DNA of 64,000 nt from a virus. The notes under the pieces were generated by a model. It made no database searches, had not been told where the DNA came from, and saw only the letters and a program-made list of their open reading frames with translations. Numbering within the stretch: the first letter of the stretch is position 1; each line of letters opens with the position of its first letter. Shown one piece after another: positions 52,745 to 60,042 of this stretch. The stretch spans positions 124,001 through 188,000 of the IMG/VR virus record IMGVR_UViG_3300032322_002561. One strand, written 5' to 3'. The position numbers and the translations under genes were made by a program.

Positions 52745-54091
52745 ATGGCACAGACAATTATCAGAGCTCTAGGATATGTAGGAGCTAGACAAGTTTTTAC
52801 TTGGCCTAGCAGTGCCAGTTTCAACAATTCAATCACAGCCTATCTGTGGGGTGGAGGTGGGGGTGGTGGCGGTTATGATGCTGGCAATTCGGGTGGTTCA
52901 GGCAGCGGTGGTGGTTACAGCCAAGTTACATTTAGTGCCAGCCCTGGCGATGTAATAGAAGTCAGCGTGGGTGGCCCAGGCACGGGTGGTGCCAGCAGTA
53001 GAAGCGGAGCTCCTGGCGGTAGTCCTGGCTTGAGCCTGGTCTTAGCAGGCACTGTGTTTACCACTCTAGACATAGCTGGAGTATTTAGAGTCACCAACGG
53101 AGCATATTGCACGTTCTTGAACAATTTTGGAGTCTGGAACGAGCCCGGTGGCGGCAGTGCCAGTTTTGGTCGCGACATTACTGTAAACTTCCCCAGTTCA
53201 GGTTTTTACACATTTGAGTTTTCAGTAGACAATGCAGGTCAAGTTTATCTCGACGGCGCTACAATTTTCAATCTCCAGGGCGAGTACAATTATGGTAACT
53301 CTGTTACTACAAGAGTGTTTGTTGCTGCCGGTAATCGCTTGTTGCAACTGCGTGGACAAAATTTTCATGGACCGGGCAGTTTTGGCCTGACCATTGCGGG
53401 CGGATTGGCCTTCAGTGGCGGTCGTGGAGGCAATGCGGGTGGTTCGGGCAGTTCTGGCGGAGGTGGCGGAGGTGGCGGTGCCACAGTGTTGAGGAAAAAT
53501 GGCACAGTGTTGGCCGTGGCCGGCGGTGGAGGTGGTGGAGGTGGTGCAGGTATCACATCGGGCACTGAGCCTGGAAACGCACCTGGACCATCAGGACAAA
53601 CCACACCCGGTATTTCAAACGGCAGTGATGGTGGCGACCGCGGTGGTGATGGCGGAGGTGGCGGAGGTGGCGGAGGTGGCAATGCCGGCGGTAACGGCGG
53701 ACCACAGGCTCCCTATGATACCTGGGGCTATGCGGGTTTTTATGGTGGTAATTTAGGAAACCGCAGCGCCAATCCACAAGGAACCACTGCTGGTTTCACA
53801 ACCAGTCCATATTATCCTGGCGGCGTTGGTAGAGGTGGCGGTCCCACAGCATCTGGGACTCCTGGCTATGCAGTGTTAGAATTTGAAATAACCGGAAGTT
53901 TTGTTAGGAATGGTGGAATATGGAATCCAATACAACAAACCTGGGTCAAACAAGATGACATATGGCAACCCGTGCAAGGAGTCTATGTCAAGTCAGGTGG
54001 GGAATGGCAACCTGTGGACGGCACCTTGGCTCCAAATTTCTCAGTGACAGGTGGTTCTTTTGGATACAGTTCTAGACCACAGGGTGGTTAG
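52745..54091 (+). CDS. Glycine-rich tail adhesin-like protein
   Basis: 448 residues. N-terminal Gly-rich region ([14 protein letters not shown]), a PA14/jellyroll-like middle (about 100-220; [19 protein letters not shown]), further long Gly tracts (residues 230-330), and a Trp-rich tail ([16 protein letters not shown]). Gly-rich loops resemble the receptor-binding motifs of T-even gp38 adhesins. Starts 10 bases after the previous fibre gene. It probably mediates host recognition. Confidence 0.7.
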
Positions 54092-54411
54092 ACACTGAAA
54101 CTGCTTCCGCATCCGCATGTGGTTGTGGCTTGAGGATTTTTTATACTGAAAGCGGCACCGTATTGATCTTCTTTATAATCAATTTCAGCACCTTGCAAAT
54201 ACTGGCTGCTCATGCCGTCAACTAGGACATTTACTCCGCCTACGTCTAGATCAAAGTCGTCTTCGTTAGTGATTTCGTCTAGAGTAAAGCCATACTGAAA
54301 TCCTGAGCAACCACCACCTTGTACAAACACACGCAATTTCAAAGCAGGATTTTGTTCTTCGGCCAAGATGTCTCGCAGTTTGGCCACTGCTGATTCACTT
54401 ACTGTTATCAT
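54088..54411 (-). CDS. IscA/ErpA-type iron-sulfur carrier
   Basis: 107 residues from ATG 54411, which overlaps the SOD stop as ATGA; four residues upstream are not needed. Cys35 in [13 protein letters not shown] and Cys99/Cys101 in TTTCGCGSS are the three conserved cluster ligands of the A-type carrier family. It would deliver Fe-S clusters; cells may use it to mature clusters in ferredoxin-like proteins. Confidence 0.9.
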
Positions 54412-54962
54412 AATCTTTCGTTGCAAACATTCCAGTCAATAATTTTCCAGATGTTATCGAGATATTTTTCTTTGTCTGATTGATAATCCAGGGCCCAGGC
54501 ATGTTCCCACCAGTCCACTAACACACATATATCTGTTCTTACCGCATGGTTGGCTATGGTTTTGATGGTACCAGCAGTGCTCAAGTAAACCCACCCAGAA
54601 CCTTGGATCTTCATTGCTTCTGTTTTAAACGCTTCCTTGAAATCTTCCCAGGTTTTGAAGTTGCTTTCAATGAGTTCTAGCACAGCACCTCGAGGACGAT
54701 TGGCACCTCGCGGTGGTTGCAGTTGTGGAAAAAACTTGTTGTGTAAAAAACTGCCAGCACGATTGAAGTTTGCGTTGCCTTCGCCAGCATTGTATCTTTT
54801 TGCATAGCCCCGAGCCAGGTGTTCATAGTGATAGTCTATGGTTTCCTTGCTCATCACAGGATGCAAGTCACCAGGACCATAGGGCAAGGGCGTGGTTTCC
54901 AACTTGGCTGGACGTGTGCTGGCTTCTAATAGTTCTAGATCTTTGCGGATGTCGTGTTGCAT
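54408..54962 (-). CDS. Fe/Mn superoxide dismutase
   Basis: 184 residues. All four metal ligands are present: His45 (DYHYEH), His74 (SFLHNKFF), Asp150 and His154 (VDWWEHAW). The Gln69 used by E. coli FeSOD is Gly70 here, and the MnSOD Gln position appears to be His139 (IANHAVR), so metal preference cannot be called; related His variants are known as cambialistic. It dismutates superoxide in the infected cell. A GGTAAATA box lies five bases before ATG, which follows the IF-1 gene by eight bases. Confidence 0.92.
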
Positions 54963-57164: not shown

Positions 57165-57479
57165 TTATTTGAACAGGATCATGGCCATGATAACCGCCTG
57201 GGTTATAAAGCCCAAGCCAATGGTTATGATGTTCAGCATGTCACGCTGGACTACTGCACGGAAGAACAACAAGATCAGGCCGGCCCACATGAACAACACA
57301 ATGTCTAGATTTGGAACAGTGTCCGAAAGTCCTGTGAGCAAGGCCAGTAGTGTGGGTATGGTGGCACAGTGTATGACCACTACTGCCAACCAGCCCAGAG
57401 TTTCAGCACTTACTTTGGGCAAGTGTTGTTCTAACCAGGTTCTTGAAGAATTCAACCAAGCGTCTAATTTGATTATCAT
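57165..57479 (-). CDS. Membrane protein, 104 residues
   Basis: Three predicted hydrophobic segments (LGWLAVVVIHCATIPTLLALL; IVLFMWAGLILLFF; LNIITIGLGFITQAVIMAMI). No recognised family. It sits directly before the SleB-like gene's stop region, possibly part of a second lysis or envelope unit. Confidence 0.6.
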   Translation of the reverse strand: MIIKLDAWLNSSRTWLEQHLPKVSAETLGWLAVVVIHCATIPTLLALLTGLSDTVPNLDIVLFMWAGLILLFFRAVVQRDMLNIITIGLGFITQAVIMAMILFK

Positions 57480-57481
57480 GT

Positions 57482-58042
57482 TTAGATTTTTTCCGCATAA
57501 AAAATGTGTCTCCCAAATTTACCTACCACGGGTTTGCCCCATTGTGGTTTCACATAGTCTGCATGAAAATAAAGTGCGTTTTTCATGCTGGGCAGTCTGA
57601 AACCTTCTAGTAGGACCTTTTTCGCTACTTCTTCTGCTTCTTTCCAGTGTGCTGGATATATGGGTCGGATCTTGCTGGATCCATCACAGAACCAGGAAAA
57701 CTGACATACTACCTTGTCATACACAATGTTCTTTTGATAAACCACACCGCAGATGTCTCGGGCAAAACGTCCCGACTCCACACGGTTGATGGTGACCTGT
57801 GCCACAGCGACCTTGCCTTCAAAGGGCTCGGTTGCGGCTTCCCAGTAGATGTTGCGTGTCAAGCAATCCAACTGCTTGGCTCGATCAGCGGCACTGACAA
57901 AGCCTTGACGTGCCGCTTCGTTGGTGGCACGCAGAGTTTCTAATTTTGTGTCGGTGACAAACAGCACTGCCACGACCACGGCCATGAAACTGATGGCCTT
58001 TACTACTATACTGCCTAGATTGGACTTTGAAGTTGCCTTCAT
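57482..58042 (-). CDS. SleB/CwlJ-type cell-wall hydrolase with N-terminal anchor
   Basis: 186 residues. An N-terminal membrane segment (AISFMAVVVAVLFV) precedes a domain with CLTRNIYWEAATEPFEGKVA and FSWFCDG, the Hydrolase_2 (SleB-like) core. It probably degrades peptidoglycan from the periplasmic side. The leader upstream (58043-58397) is highly structured and may control it. Confidence 0.75.
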   Translation of the reverse strand: MKATSKSNLGSIVVKAISFMAVVVAVLFVTDTKLETLRATNEAARQGFVSAADRAKQLDCLTRNIYWEAATEPFEGKVAVAQVTINRVESGRFARDICGVVYQKNIVYDKVVCQFSWFCDGSSKIRPIYPAHWKEAEEVAKKVLLEGFRLPSMKNALYFHADYVKPQWGKPVVGKFGRHIFYAEKI

Positions 58043-58055
58043 AGTTTTCTCCCGT

Positions 58056-58320
58056 CAGCTTAGTGAGCTGTTCACCGGAGTGCCCAGGATGGGCGCATTG
58101 ACAAAGATTTGGGCAAAAGAAAAGACCTCGGGCCTCCTTTGGCATACTCTCCGAGCGCGGCTTTGTTTCTCACCGGGCCTGTACCATTTGTCAATGAAGA
58201 GGATTTCCGAAGTCCTCTTTGATCAGCTTTGCGGCACTGACCGATCCGTTGTGGAGTAGAAGTTGGGTGTAATCCTCCGCTGATCGATTCTACGACAGCC
58301 TGAACTGGTGTTCTACTCCA
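58056..58320 (-). ncRNA. Candidate structured leader RNA 1
   Basis: The roughly 355 bases between the promoter at 58398 and the SleB-like ATG contain two perfect 10-bp inverted pairs (58252-58261 with 58311-58320; 58096-58105 with 58187-58196), a 7-bp pseudoknot partner pair (58279-58285 in the first loop with 58221-58227 downstream), and local hairpins (58197-58203/58213-58219; 58082-58086/58090-58094; 58056-58060/58066-58070). Such long-range perfect complementarity suggests a folded RNA, either a cis regulator or a stable ncRNA. A 107-codon open frame crosses it but is considered incidental. No known RNA family matched by eye. Confidence 0.55.
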
Positions 58321-58397
58321 TAAAATACTTAGTAACTGATCAATATCAGAAACAAATAAAGTCATTTTTTTAACACTTTTTACCATAATATACACAT

Positions 58398-58426
58398 ATT
58401 ATAGCACGACTAAGTTTTAAAGTCAA
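58398..58426 (-). promoter_or_regulatory. Sigma70-type promoter for RNA 1/SleB-like gene
   Basis: Minus-strand TTGACT (58421-58426), 17 bases, TATAAT (58398-58403), then ATGTGTATATT; it overlaps the ferredoxin stop. Confidence 0.7.
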
Positions 58427-58749
58427 TCTCGTTCAATTAGATGTCTTTTTTGCTCGATCTTACTCCAATGATCAGCATCAGGCAAAGCATCAACTCGTTT
58501 GGTCATAGACGGCCATAATTGAGCTAACTCTGCATTGAGCGCAATAAATTCTTGTTGATCTCCAGGAACATCATCTTCGGCATAAATCGCATTTACTGGA
58601 CATTCTGGTACGCAAACAGCACAATCGATACACTCGTTGGGATCAATTACAAGAAAATTTGGCCCTGCTCGAAAACAATCTACTGGACACACATCTACAC
58701 AATCAGTGTAACGGCATTTGACACAGGCTTCGGTTACAACAAAAGTCAT
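58423..58749 (-). CDS. fdxA: 7Fe (3Fe-4S/4Fe-4S) ferredoxin, FdxA type
   Basis: 108 residues. Nine cysteines (9, 12, 17, 21, 25, 40, 43, 46, 50) in the spacing of Azotobacter-type ferredoxin I, followed by the long FdI-specific C-terminal extension ([15 protein letters not shown]). A low-potential electron carrier. RBS GAGGAG in the end of nadE. Confidence 0.92.
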
Positions 58750-58750
58750 A

Positions 58751-59512
58751 TTACTCCTCGAATTTACAAACTGGGATTGGCGTCATTTTGTGCATGTTTT
58801 GGGCACGCAGTTCTCGATAACGTTTTAATTTTTTCCTGTCTTGTGGCGCGGCTCCAAATCCCGCCGCATCCAACTGCATCATGGTTTCCAGTTCAGGATA
58901 GGTCATGCCCAACTGATCTTCATCGGTGCGTCCATCAGCCCAGAGTCCGTCTGTGGGTGCGGCATCAATGATTTCCGGCATGATGCCAAGCTCGCGACCC
59001 ATGGACCATACGTCGGTCTTCATGCAGTCGCCAATGGGGCTGATGTCCACACCACCATCGCCATACTTGGTAAAAAAGCCCACACCAAAATCCTCGACCC
59101 GGTTACCGGTGCCAACAACAATGCCACTATTGCACTGTGCAATTTGATACAAGGTCATCATGCGTAATCGACTACGGCTGTTGGCAAAGGCCAACTCGTT
59201 GTCAAACACTGTGCCCATGGCTCGTTCAAATTGTTTAAAAGTAGGTGTAAGATCCAAGGTGTAGTTTTCAGCATTGGGATATTGTGTGGTCAACCAGTAA
59301 GCATGCCCTACGCTGAGTTCATGAGTGTGTTTGCTCTGTTTTATGGGCATGCACACAGCCATGGTAGGGATACCGGTGCGAGCACACAAGGTGGATACCA
59401 CAGCTGAGTCAATGCCGCCCGATACTCCCACCACAAGAGTTTTGATCTTGTTTTTGGTGGCGTAGCTTTTGATCCACTTTGTAATATAATTAATTCTTTG
59501 TTTGGGCGTCAT
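58751..59512 (-). CDS. nadE: NH3-dependent NAD+ synthetase
   Basis: 253 residues from ATG 59512, ATGA-coupled upstream. SGGIDSA (31-37) is the ATP-pyrophosphatase loop, [20 protein letters not shown] the NaAD/ATP site and [14 protein letters not shown] the closing helix. It converts nicotinic acid adenine dinucleotide to NAD+. It may raise NAD supply for phage DNA replication (inference). Confidence 0.95.
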
Positions 59513-60042
59513 TCTATTTCTGGAGCGGGCATGGCTTTGATACGATCCCAAGTGGCCTGTTTATCCTTAATATGCTGTTCTAGCTTGCGATATTGTTCAC
59601 CCAGCTCACGCAGGTCCTCCCACTCCTTTTCCAATTCTGGATTGGGTTGGAACAGGCTCAAGCGTTCTTCGATCCTTTTGACCGCTGCTACCAGACTCCA
59701 GCCATTGACTTCTACATCAGCGCCTTCACCGTTGAGTTGGATTCGGCCGCTGGTAGGACTTTGTGTGAACCAAGGTGTTGCGTTGGTTCCAGTGGAGTAA
59801 ATGGTGTTGGACAACGAAAGATTACCAAAGGTAACCGAAGGTGAAATACTGGCTCCAATAGCACCAGTCACAGTGTATGGACTGGTCAGGCTCATGTTGT
59901 CCAAAGCCGAGGTAATGGTTATGGTATCATTTGCAATGTCACTGGCAGTGGGAGTGCTCTCGTACAAGGCAAAGTTGTTGTTTAGGTCCCACTCCTTGAC
60001 AATTTCCTCCAAGCGAGTGGGTGCAGATATTTTGGGTTCCAT
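59509..60042 (-). CDS. Conserved T4-like phage protein, coiled-coil end
   Basis: 177 residues. Beta-rich middle (TITITSALDNMSLTSPYTVTG), then NGWSLVAAVKRIEERL and a coiled coil (EWEDLRELGEQYRKLEQHI), found in T4-like phage virion or unknown proteins. TAATG overlap with the upstream gene. Confidence 0.65.
   Translation of the reverse strand: MEPKISAPTRLEEIVKEWDLNNNFALYESTPTASDIANDTITITSALDNMSLTSPYTVTGAIGASISPSVTFGNLSLSNTIYSTGTNATPWFTQSPTSGRIQLNGEGADVEVNGWSLVAAVKRIEERLSLFQPNPELEKEWEDLRELGEQYRKLEQHIKDKQATWDRIKAMPAPEIE

Follow-up and report, generated by a model that had tools for sequence, protein, structure and literature searches.

The translational riboswitches SAM-II and preQ1-II/III carry an H-type pseudoknot that lies beside, or includes, the Shine-Dalgarno sequence (SD) of the gene they control. 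In phage T4, the leader of gene 32 has a small 5' H-type pseudoknot upstream of the SD; this pseudoknot is bound by gp32 and serves as an autogenous translational operator. GOLLD and ROOL, some of which occur in phages, are large ornate RNAs that are longer than about 290 nt and act in trans. The marine T4-like phage Melnitz has a glutamine riboswitch, which belongs to a known family and sits with a tmRNA gene (PMC9004378). The open-access literature, to which our search was confined, gave no account of phage lysis riboswitches or of the leader motif described here.

The leader RNA treated here, called class 1, is like SAM-II and preQ1-II/III in having a pseudoknot at the SD of the gene it would control, but it is much larger, contains several pseudoknots and is associated with no metabolic gene. 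Like the T4 gene 32 leader it heads a phage mRNA and has an H-type pseudoknot on the 5' side of the SD, but its conserved core is large and the genes that follow are lysis genes. It shares with GOLLD and ROOL the character of an ornate RNA in phages, whereas it is about 290 nt long and tied to one gene. With the glutamine riboswitch of Melnitz-like phages it has in common that a structured, here putatively regulatory, RNA occurs in a phage with a related three-TM protein, but the class-1 leader precedes an endolysin gene and matches no known family. The original prediction had recognised no known RNA family at this place, and Rfam 15, at gathering and at permissive thresholds, gave chance matches only for the window, for divergent class-1 members and for the second leader class described below. 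The leader belongs to none of the described families tested.

The lysis locus and its promoter

The window, that is, the whole stretch of 64,000 bases of viral DNA that was analysed, covers positions 124001-188000 in a virus record of 236,309 bases, and its features are collected in Table 1. A structured leader had been predicted between a consensus promoter and a lysis-type, SleB-like hydrolase gene, and all three parts were confirmed on the minus strand. Between the promoter and the endolysin gene there are about 350 bases without a conserved protein, the RNA 5' end lying near 58390 and the start codon at 58042, and in the relatives equivalent promoters stand upstream of the leader RNA. Near-consensus promoters of the form TTGACN-N15-17-TATAAT are strongly enriched in the window as a whole, where six were found against 0.1 expected, every one of them on the minus strand (36601, 57132, 58398, 60266, 61515 and 62229). 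In addition, a conserved box, TTATGGYAAAAA (58377-58388, minus), lies between the promoter and the leader RNA, at the same place in relatives, and is found upstream of the promoter in members where the promoter abuts the leader RNA.

The SleB endolysin of the window has an N-terminal membrane segment, hydrophobic near residue 7. The 104-aa three-TM protein encoded next to it is a probable holin, as judged from its position and topology, and is matched by no Pfam or PHROG model. The three-TM gene adjoins the endolysin gene in most relatives as well, the gap ranging from -4 to +2 nt, and its product there has three hydrophobic segments; the proteins are a candidate new family of holins. Melnitz has a homologue of the three-TM protein at 38% identity, whose gene lies two genes away from that of a GH108 hydrolase. 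The window also contains host-like genes at 54088-54962 and 58423-59518 (minus), namely those of an Fe/Mn superoxide dismutase, an IscA-type Fe-S protein, an FdxA-type ferredoxin and an NAD synthase. ARAGORN and cmscan detected no tRNA or tmRNA in the window, and neither a tRNA-like domain nor a tag reading frame was found.

Table 1. Promoter, lysis genes and leader elements in the window, with one example of the second leader class from another contig (last line)
Feature	Position	Strand	Description
Promoter, sigma-70-type	58398..58426	minus	TTGACT-17-TATAAT with TG extension, consensus score 11/12
SleB/Hydrolase_2 endolysin gene	57482..58042	minus	186 codons; PF07486 E=2e-24; PHROG endolysin E=1.3e-19
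Probable holin gene	57165..57479	minus	104 aa, three TM; starts three nucleotides after endolysin
Structured leader RNA, class 1	58043..58333 (about)	minus	conserved CUAAGUA box to just before SleB start codon
P1	58252..58320	minus	UGGAGUAGAA 58320-58311 with UUCUACUCCA 58261-58252, 10 bp perfect; encloses P2
P2 hairpin	58299-58295/58283-58279	minus	inside P1; extension pair 39-50 is the top-ranked covarying column pair
PK1, 5' H-type pseudoknot	58221..58248	minus	CGG 58248-58246/CCG 58234-58232 and GGUCAG 58242-58237/CUGAUC 58226-58221
P4 hairpin	58197..58219	minus	AAGAGGA-CUUCGGAAA-UCCUCUU
PK2	58126..58212	minus	P4 loop CUUCGG 58212-58207 with CCGAGG 58131-58126, 6 bp
P5 long-range helix	58096..58196	minus	CAUUGACA(AA)/(UU)UGUCAAUG, encloses P6; 84% of cells paired
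P6 variable stem	58154..58179	minus	conserved AGAAACAAA-type loop; both sides change in 7/8 pairs
P8 hairpin	58082..58094	minus	GCCC-AUCCU-GGGC; 100% of cells paired; GCCC/GGGC and GUCC/GGAC variants
PK3, 3' H-type pseudoknot	58056..58075	minus	stem 1 GUG 58075-58073/CAC 58065-58063; stem 2 CAGCU 58070-58066/AGCUG 58060-58056
Anti-SD/SD	58049..58080	minus	CUCC 58080-58077 opposite GGAG 58052-58049, encloses PK3; 94% of A1 cells paired
Class-2 leader, example	L147:2795-3051	minus	alignment A4

Relatives and distribution of the leader

A SleB search first led to relatives, at loci that resemble the leader in the 400 bases upstream of the gene. A pattern made of the P4 hairpin and the following UUGACAA gave 48 viral contigs and a looser pattern ten more, and consequently the leader RNA is found in 58 viral contigs beside the window's own, with 52 distinct cores when that of the window is included. 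The downstream gene is a SleB homologue in all 51 distinct cores with a readable gene, its product being 31-100% identical to SleB of the window, and the distance from the P4 hairpin to SleB is 169-204 bases (173-193 in the groups added by the looser pattern). The position of the leader, 5' of one gene and on the same strand, is thus fixed across the relatives. In most members the next gene after SleB encodes a holin-like three-TM protein of about 103 aa and overlaps SleB by 4 nt or lies 1-2 nt from it, while in some members another gene follows, or none was found. In two contigs (L088 and L099) the leader RNA is followed first by an additional SleB-like gene, whose product has an N-terminal hydrophobic segment of its own, and only then by the usual SleB gene.

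The leader is present in a single copy per genome, and no credible second copy was detected in the same genome. It was not found in GTDB bacterial genomes searched with the P4-UUGACAA pattern, nor by BLASTN against phage isolates and plasmids. Its carriers are a large family of uncultured large phages. The element is modular and its 5' domain dispensable or modular, because PK3 appears to be replaced in divergent members and because three contigs (L010, L107 and L084) have a leader without the 5' domain.

Fold and covariation of the leader RNA

The class-1 leader is about 290 bases long, and the core covariance model scores the window at 106 bits. Its folding energy is -102.4 kcal/mol against -89.9 +/- 5.5 kcal/mol in shuffles (z -2.27), one of 100 shuffles being as good. 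Two perfect 10-bp long-range stems had been predicted; both are real in the window, since among 400 dinucleotide-preserving shuffles 12 showed one such stem and none showed a pair of them, but the relatives keep only about 7 bp of each. One is P1, whose conserved core of 7 bp shows the pair changes GC to AU, UA to CG and AU to UA among relatives, and the other is P5, which in the window pairs CAUUGACAAA (58196-58187) with UUUGUCAAUG (58105-58096) and whose second pair, A-U in the group to which the window belongs, reads G-C or G-U in other groups. The pairing of a loop with a downstream segment, predicted at 7 bp, is likewise present as PK2, but it has 6 bp; it is nearly invariant in the window's group, and the UCUCGG or CCUCGG loops of other groups lend it slight support. 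Two pseudoknots, PK1 and PK3, had been overlooked, the latter being the best-supported element of all. Over 52 sequences P4 occurs as GAGGA/UCCUC, GAGAC/GUCUC and GAGAU/AUCUC, and conservation in the parts of P4 and P5 that the search patterns fixed comes partly from the selection of the data set. The invariant core of the leader consists of the UCGG loop, UUGACAA and GGCCCGAGGUCU.

Compensatory covariation in homologues, on which the original prediction had been made to depend beforehand, is present and extensive. It was counted on alignment A1 (24 full-length, related members) for a structure of 71 pairs comprising P1, P2, PK1 (two crossing stems), P4, PK2, P5, P6, P8, the anti-SD/SD helix and PK3 (two crossing stems). 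Both sides have changed with pairing kept in 24 pairs, against 15.6 +/- 1.7 in shuffles (0/500) and at most 11 with slid partners. Because such double-change counts are inflated by the kinship of the sequences, a tree-aware test in the manner of R-scape was added, in which the APC-corrected G statistic of all column pairs was compared with 40 tree-simulated alignments. In this test, which uses 24 related sequences and a shortened null, four column pairs exceed every null pair: 39-50 in P2, 283-296 in PK3 stem 1, and 290-303 and 292-301 in PK3 stem 2. Since both of its crossing stems are supported separately, PK3 can, on comparative grounds, be taken as well established. Its stem 2 reads CAGC/GCTG, GCGC/GCGC, CGGT/ACCG, GTGTA/TACAC, GAACC/GGTTC, CGATC/GATCG and others in various phages, and about ten alternative stem sequences of PK3 keep complementarity. 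In PK1b, both sides change in four of six pairs of A1, while PK1a is invariant. A1 shows almost no variation in PK1 stem 1, PK2 or the anti-SD/SD helix, which is compatible with their pairing but does not prove it; the anti-SD/SD helix, of 3-4 bp only, cannot covary because the SD is fixed.

The inverted repeats might instead work at the level of DNA, as an operator or a replication element. However, the leader stems have 82 G-U pairs against 33 A-C mismatches, which fits an RNA read from the minus strand, and the crossing stems and the fixed link to the SD and start codon also fit RNA, which makes a DNA element very improbable. The conservation could also be that of an overlapping protein, encoded by the frame 58072-58395 or by its extension, which has its ATG at 58384. 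Many members keep this frame open, and in some of them its stop codon overlaps with the start of SleB. Against this, substitution rates by codon position are flat (0.140/0.141/0.134 and 0.126/0.121/0.128), indels and spacings between invariant blocks differ by non-multiples of three, the same invariant bases fall in different frames among relatives, and stops interrupt many of the frames. Conservation dominated by this frame had been named as the result that would tell against the prediction; for the core, the frame is refuted, and we give hardly any credence to a protein as the explanation.

Proposed translational control of the lysis cassette

The original prediction offered two options, a riboswitch-like element or a stable ncRNA, and the evidence favours a cis-regulatory element, because all 51 downstream genes are SleB homologues and because PK3 is built around the Shine-Dalgarno sequence of SleB. 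A leader-derived RNA acting in trans, with only a secondary linkage to SleB, would agree with the compact, ornate fold with its several pseudoknots and with the one copy per genome, but the SleB linkage is strict (51/51), PK3 and the anti-SD end exactly at the SD, and no terminator is predicted between the leader RNA and the SleB gene, so such a role is improbable. The conserved and compensated structure, together with the fixed 5' position, supports a cis-regulatory structured RNA with a predicted effect on expression.

Our main reading, which we hold at a probability of roughly two in three, is that the leader would act in cis on the translation of the lysis cassette, as a switch or timer that opens in response to a ligand, a protein or an event. 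The leader and the cassette of endolysin and probable holin would be transcribed from their own sigma-70-type promoter, and PK1, the P4 hairpin with its loop pairing and the P5/P6 core would fold into a compact domain. The adjoining PK3 and anti-SD would then hold the SD of the endolysin gene and keep translation low, until the SD is released by a trigger acting on the core. This trigger may be a small molecule, a protein of phage or host, or a slow step in folding or processing; endolysin and holin would then be made and the time of lysis set. Thus the leader probably decides when the lysis enzyme is made. The comparison shows RNA-level conservation, the pseudoknots, the fixed SleB link and the position of PK3 and the anti-SD at the SD, whereas we infer the gating of the SD, the direction of the switch, its trigger and the role in lysis timing. 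Ensemble folding, in which pseudoknots are not possible, gives SD pairing probabilities of 0.41-0.97 across members and of 0.75 in the window, the predicted SD pairing being only moderate in some members. In addition, a simple hairpin apparently replaces PK3 in five contigs (L130, L131, L133, L137 and L139), and L094 has ACC where others have UCC.

As to what opens the SD, the gene context suggests no ligand, because only one gene type is under control. An autonomous timer or a protein-binding operator, in which a metastable fold delays translation of the lysis genes through processing or through the binding of a protein from phage or host, would agree with a single controlled gene type and no metabolic gene, with an H-type pseudoknot directly at the SD, and with the toxicity of lysis genes, which makes a delay necessary. 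However, the large invariant core (UCGG loop, UUGACAA, GGCCCGAGGUCU) is more elaborate than the known protein operators of such kind and no candidate binding protein was identified, and we regard this explanation as rather unlikely. Only tentatively can the switch be called a new riboswitch class that would sense a host metabolite, an ion or the state of infection and time lysis by gating endolysin-holin translation, with unrelated RNA classes doing the same job in sister lineages. A long-range CGGA-UCCG pairing predicted by RNAalifold, a competitor of PK1 and the anti-SD if it forms, could act as the switch; this stays speculation, because the pairing is invariant and UCCG persists in members without the 5' domain.

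A second, dissimilar leader (class 2) precedes the cassette of SleB and the three-TM protein in 29 viral contigs (L140-L168). It has an invariant CCGCGAGTCTTGGCCAATGAGAAACCCG, shows compensatory change in 12 of 52 predicted pairs, and ends in CUCC opposite the SD GGAG, where compensatory change is seen in 2 of 19 sequences. It has no match in Rfam, and the class-1 model R1 found nothing at the class-2 loci L027, L028, L030 and L035. The presence of a second, dissimilar leader class on the same cassette suggests that RNA control of the SleB and three-TM cassette was selected repeatedly. A third, shorter leader, about 110 bases upstream of SleB in L016-L024, carries a conserved stem (GUAGUU...AACUAC) and an ACCU, for which the SD AGGAGG is a possible partner. 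The phage contig of the class-2 example in Table 1 also encodes a permuted betaproteobacterial-type tmRNA with the tag ANSSEYALAA (L147:9535-9899, minus).

The covariation model supplies exact compensatory mutations, and the two dissimilar leader classes on the same gene are independent test cases. The timing of lysis is usually attributed to the biophysics of holins and to late transcription. That dozens of large environmental phages have an elaborate RNA in a fixed place at the head of their lysis cassette points to lysis being controlled directly through translation, perhaps in response to a signal from the host.
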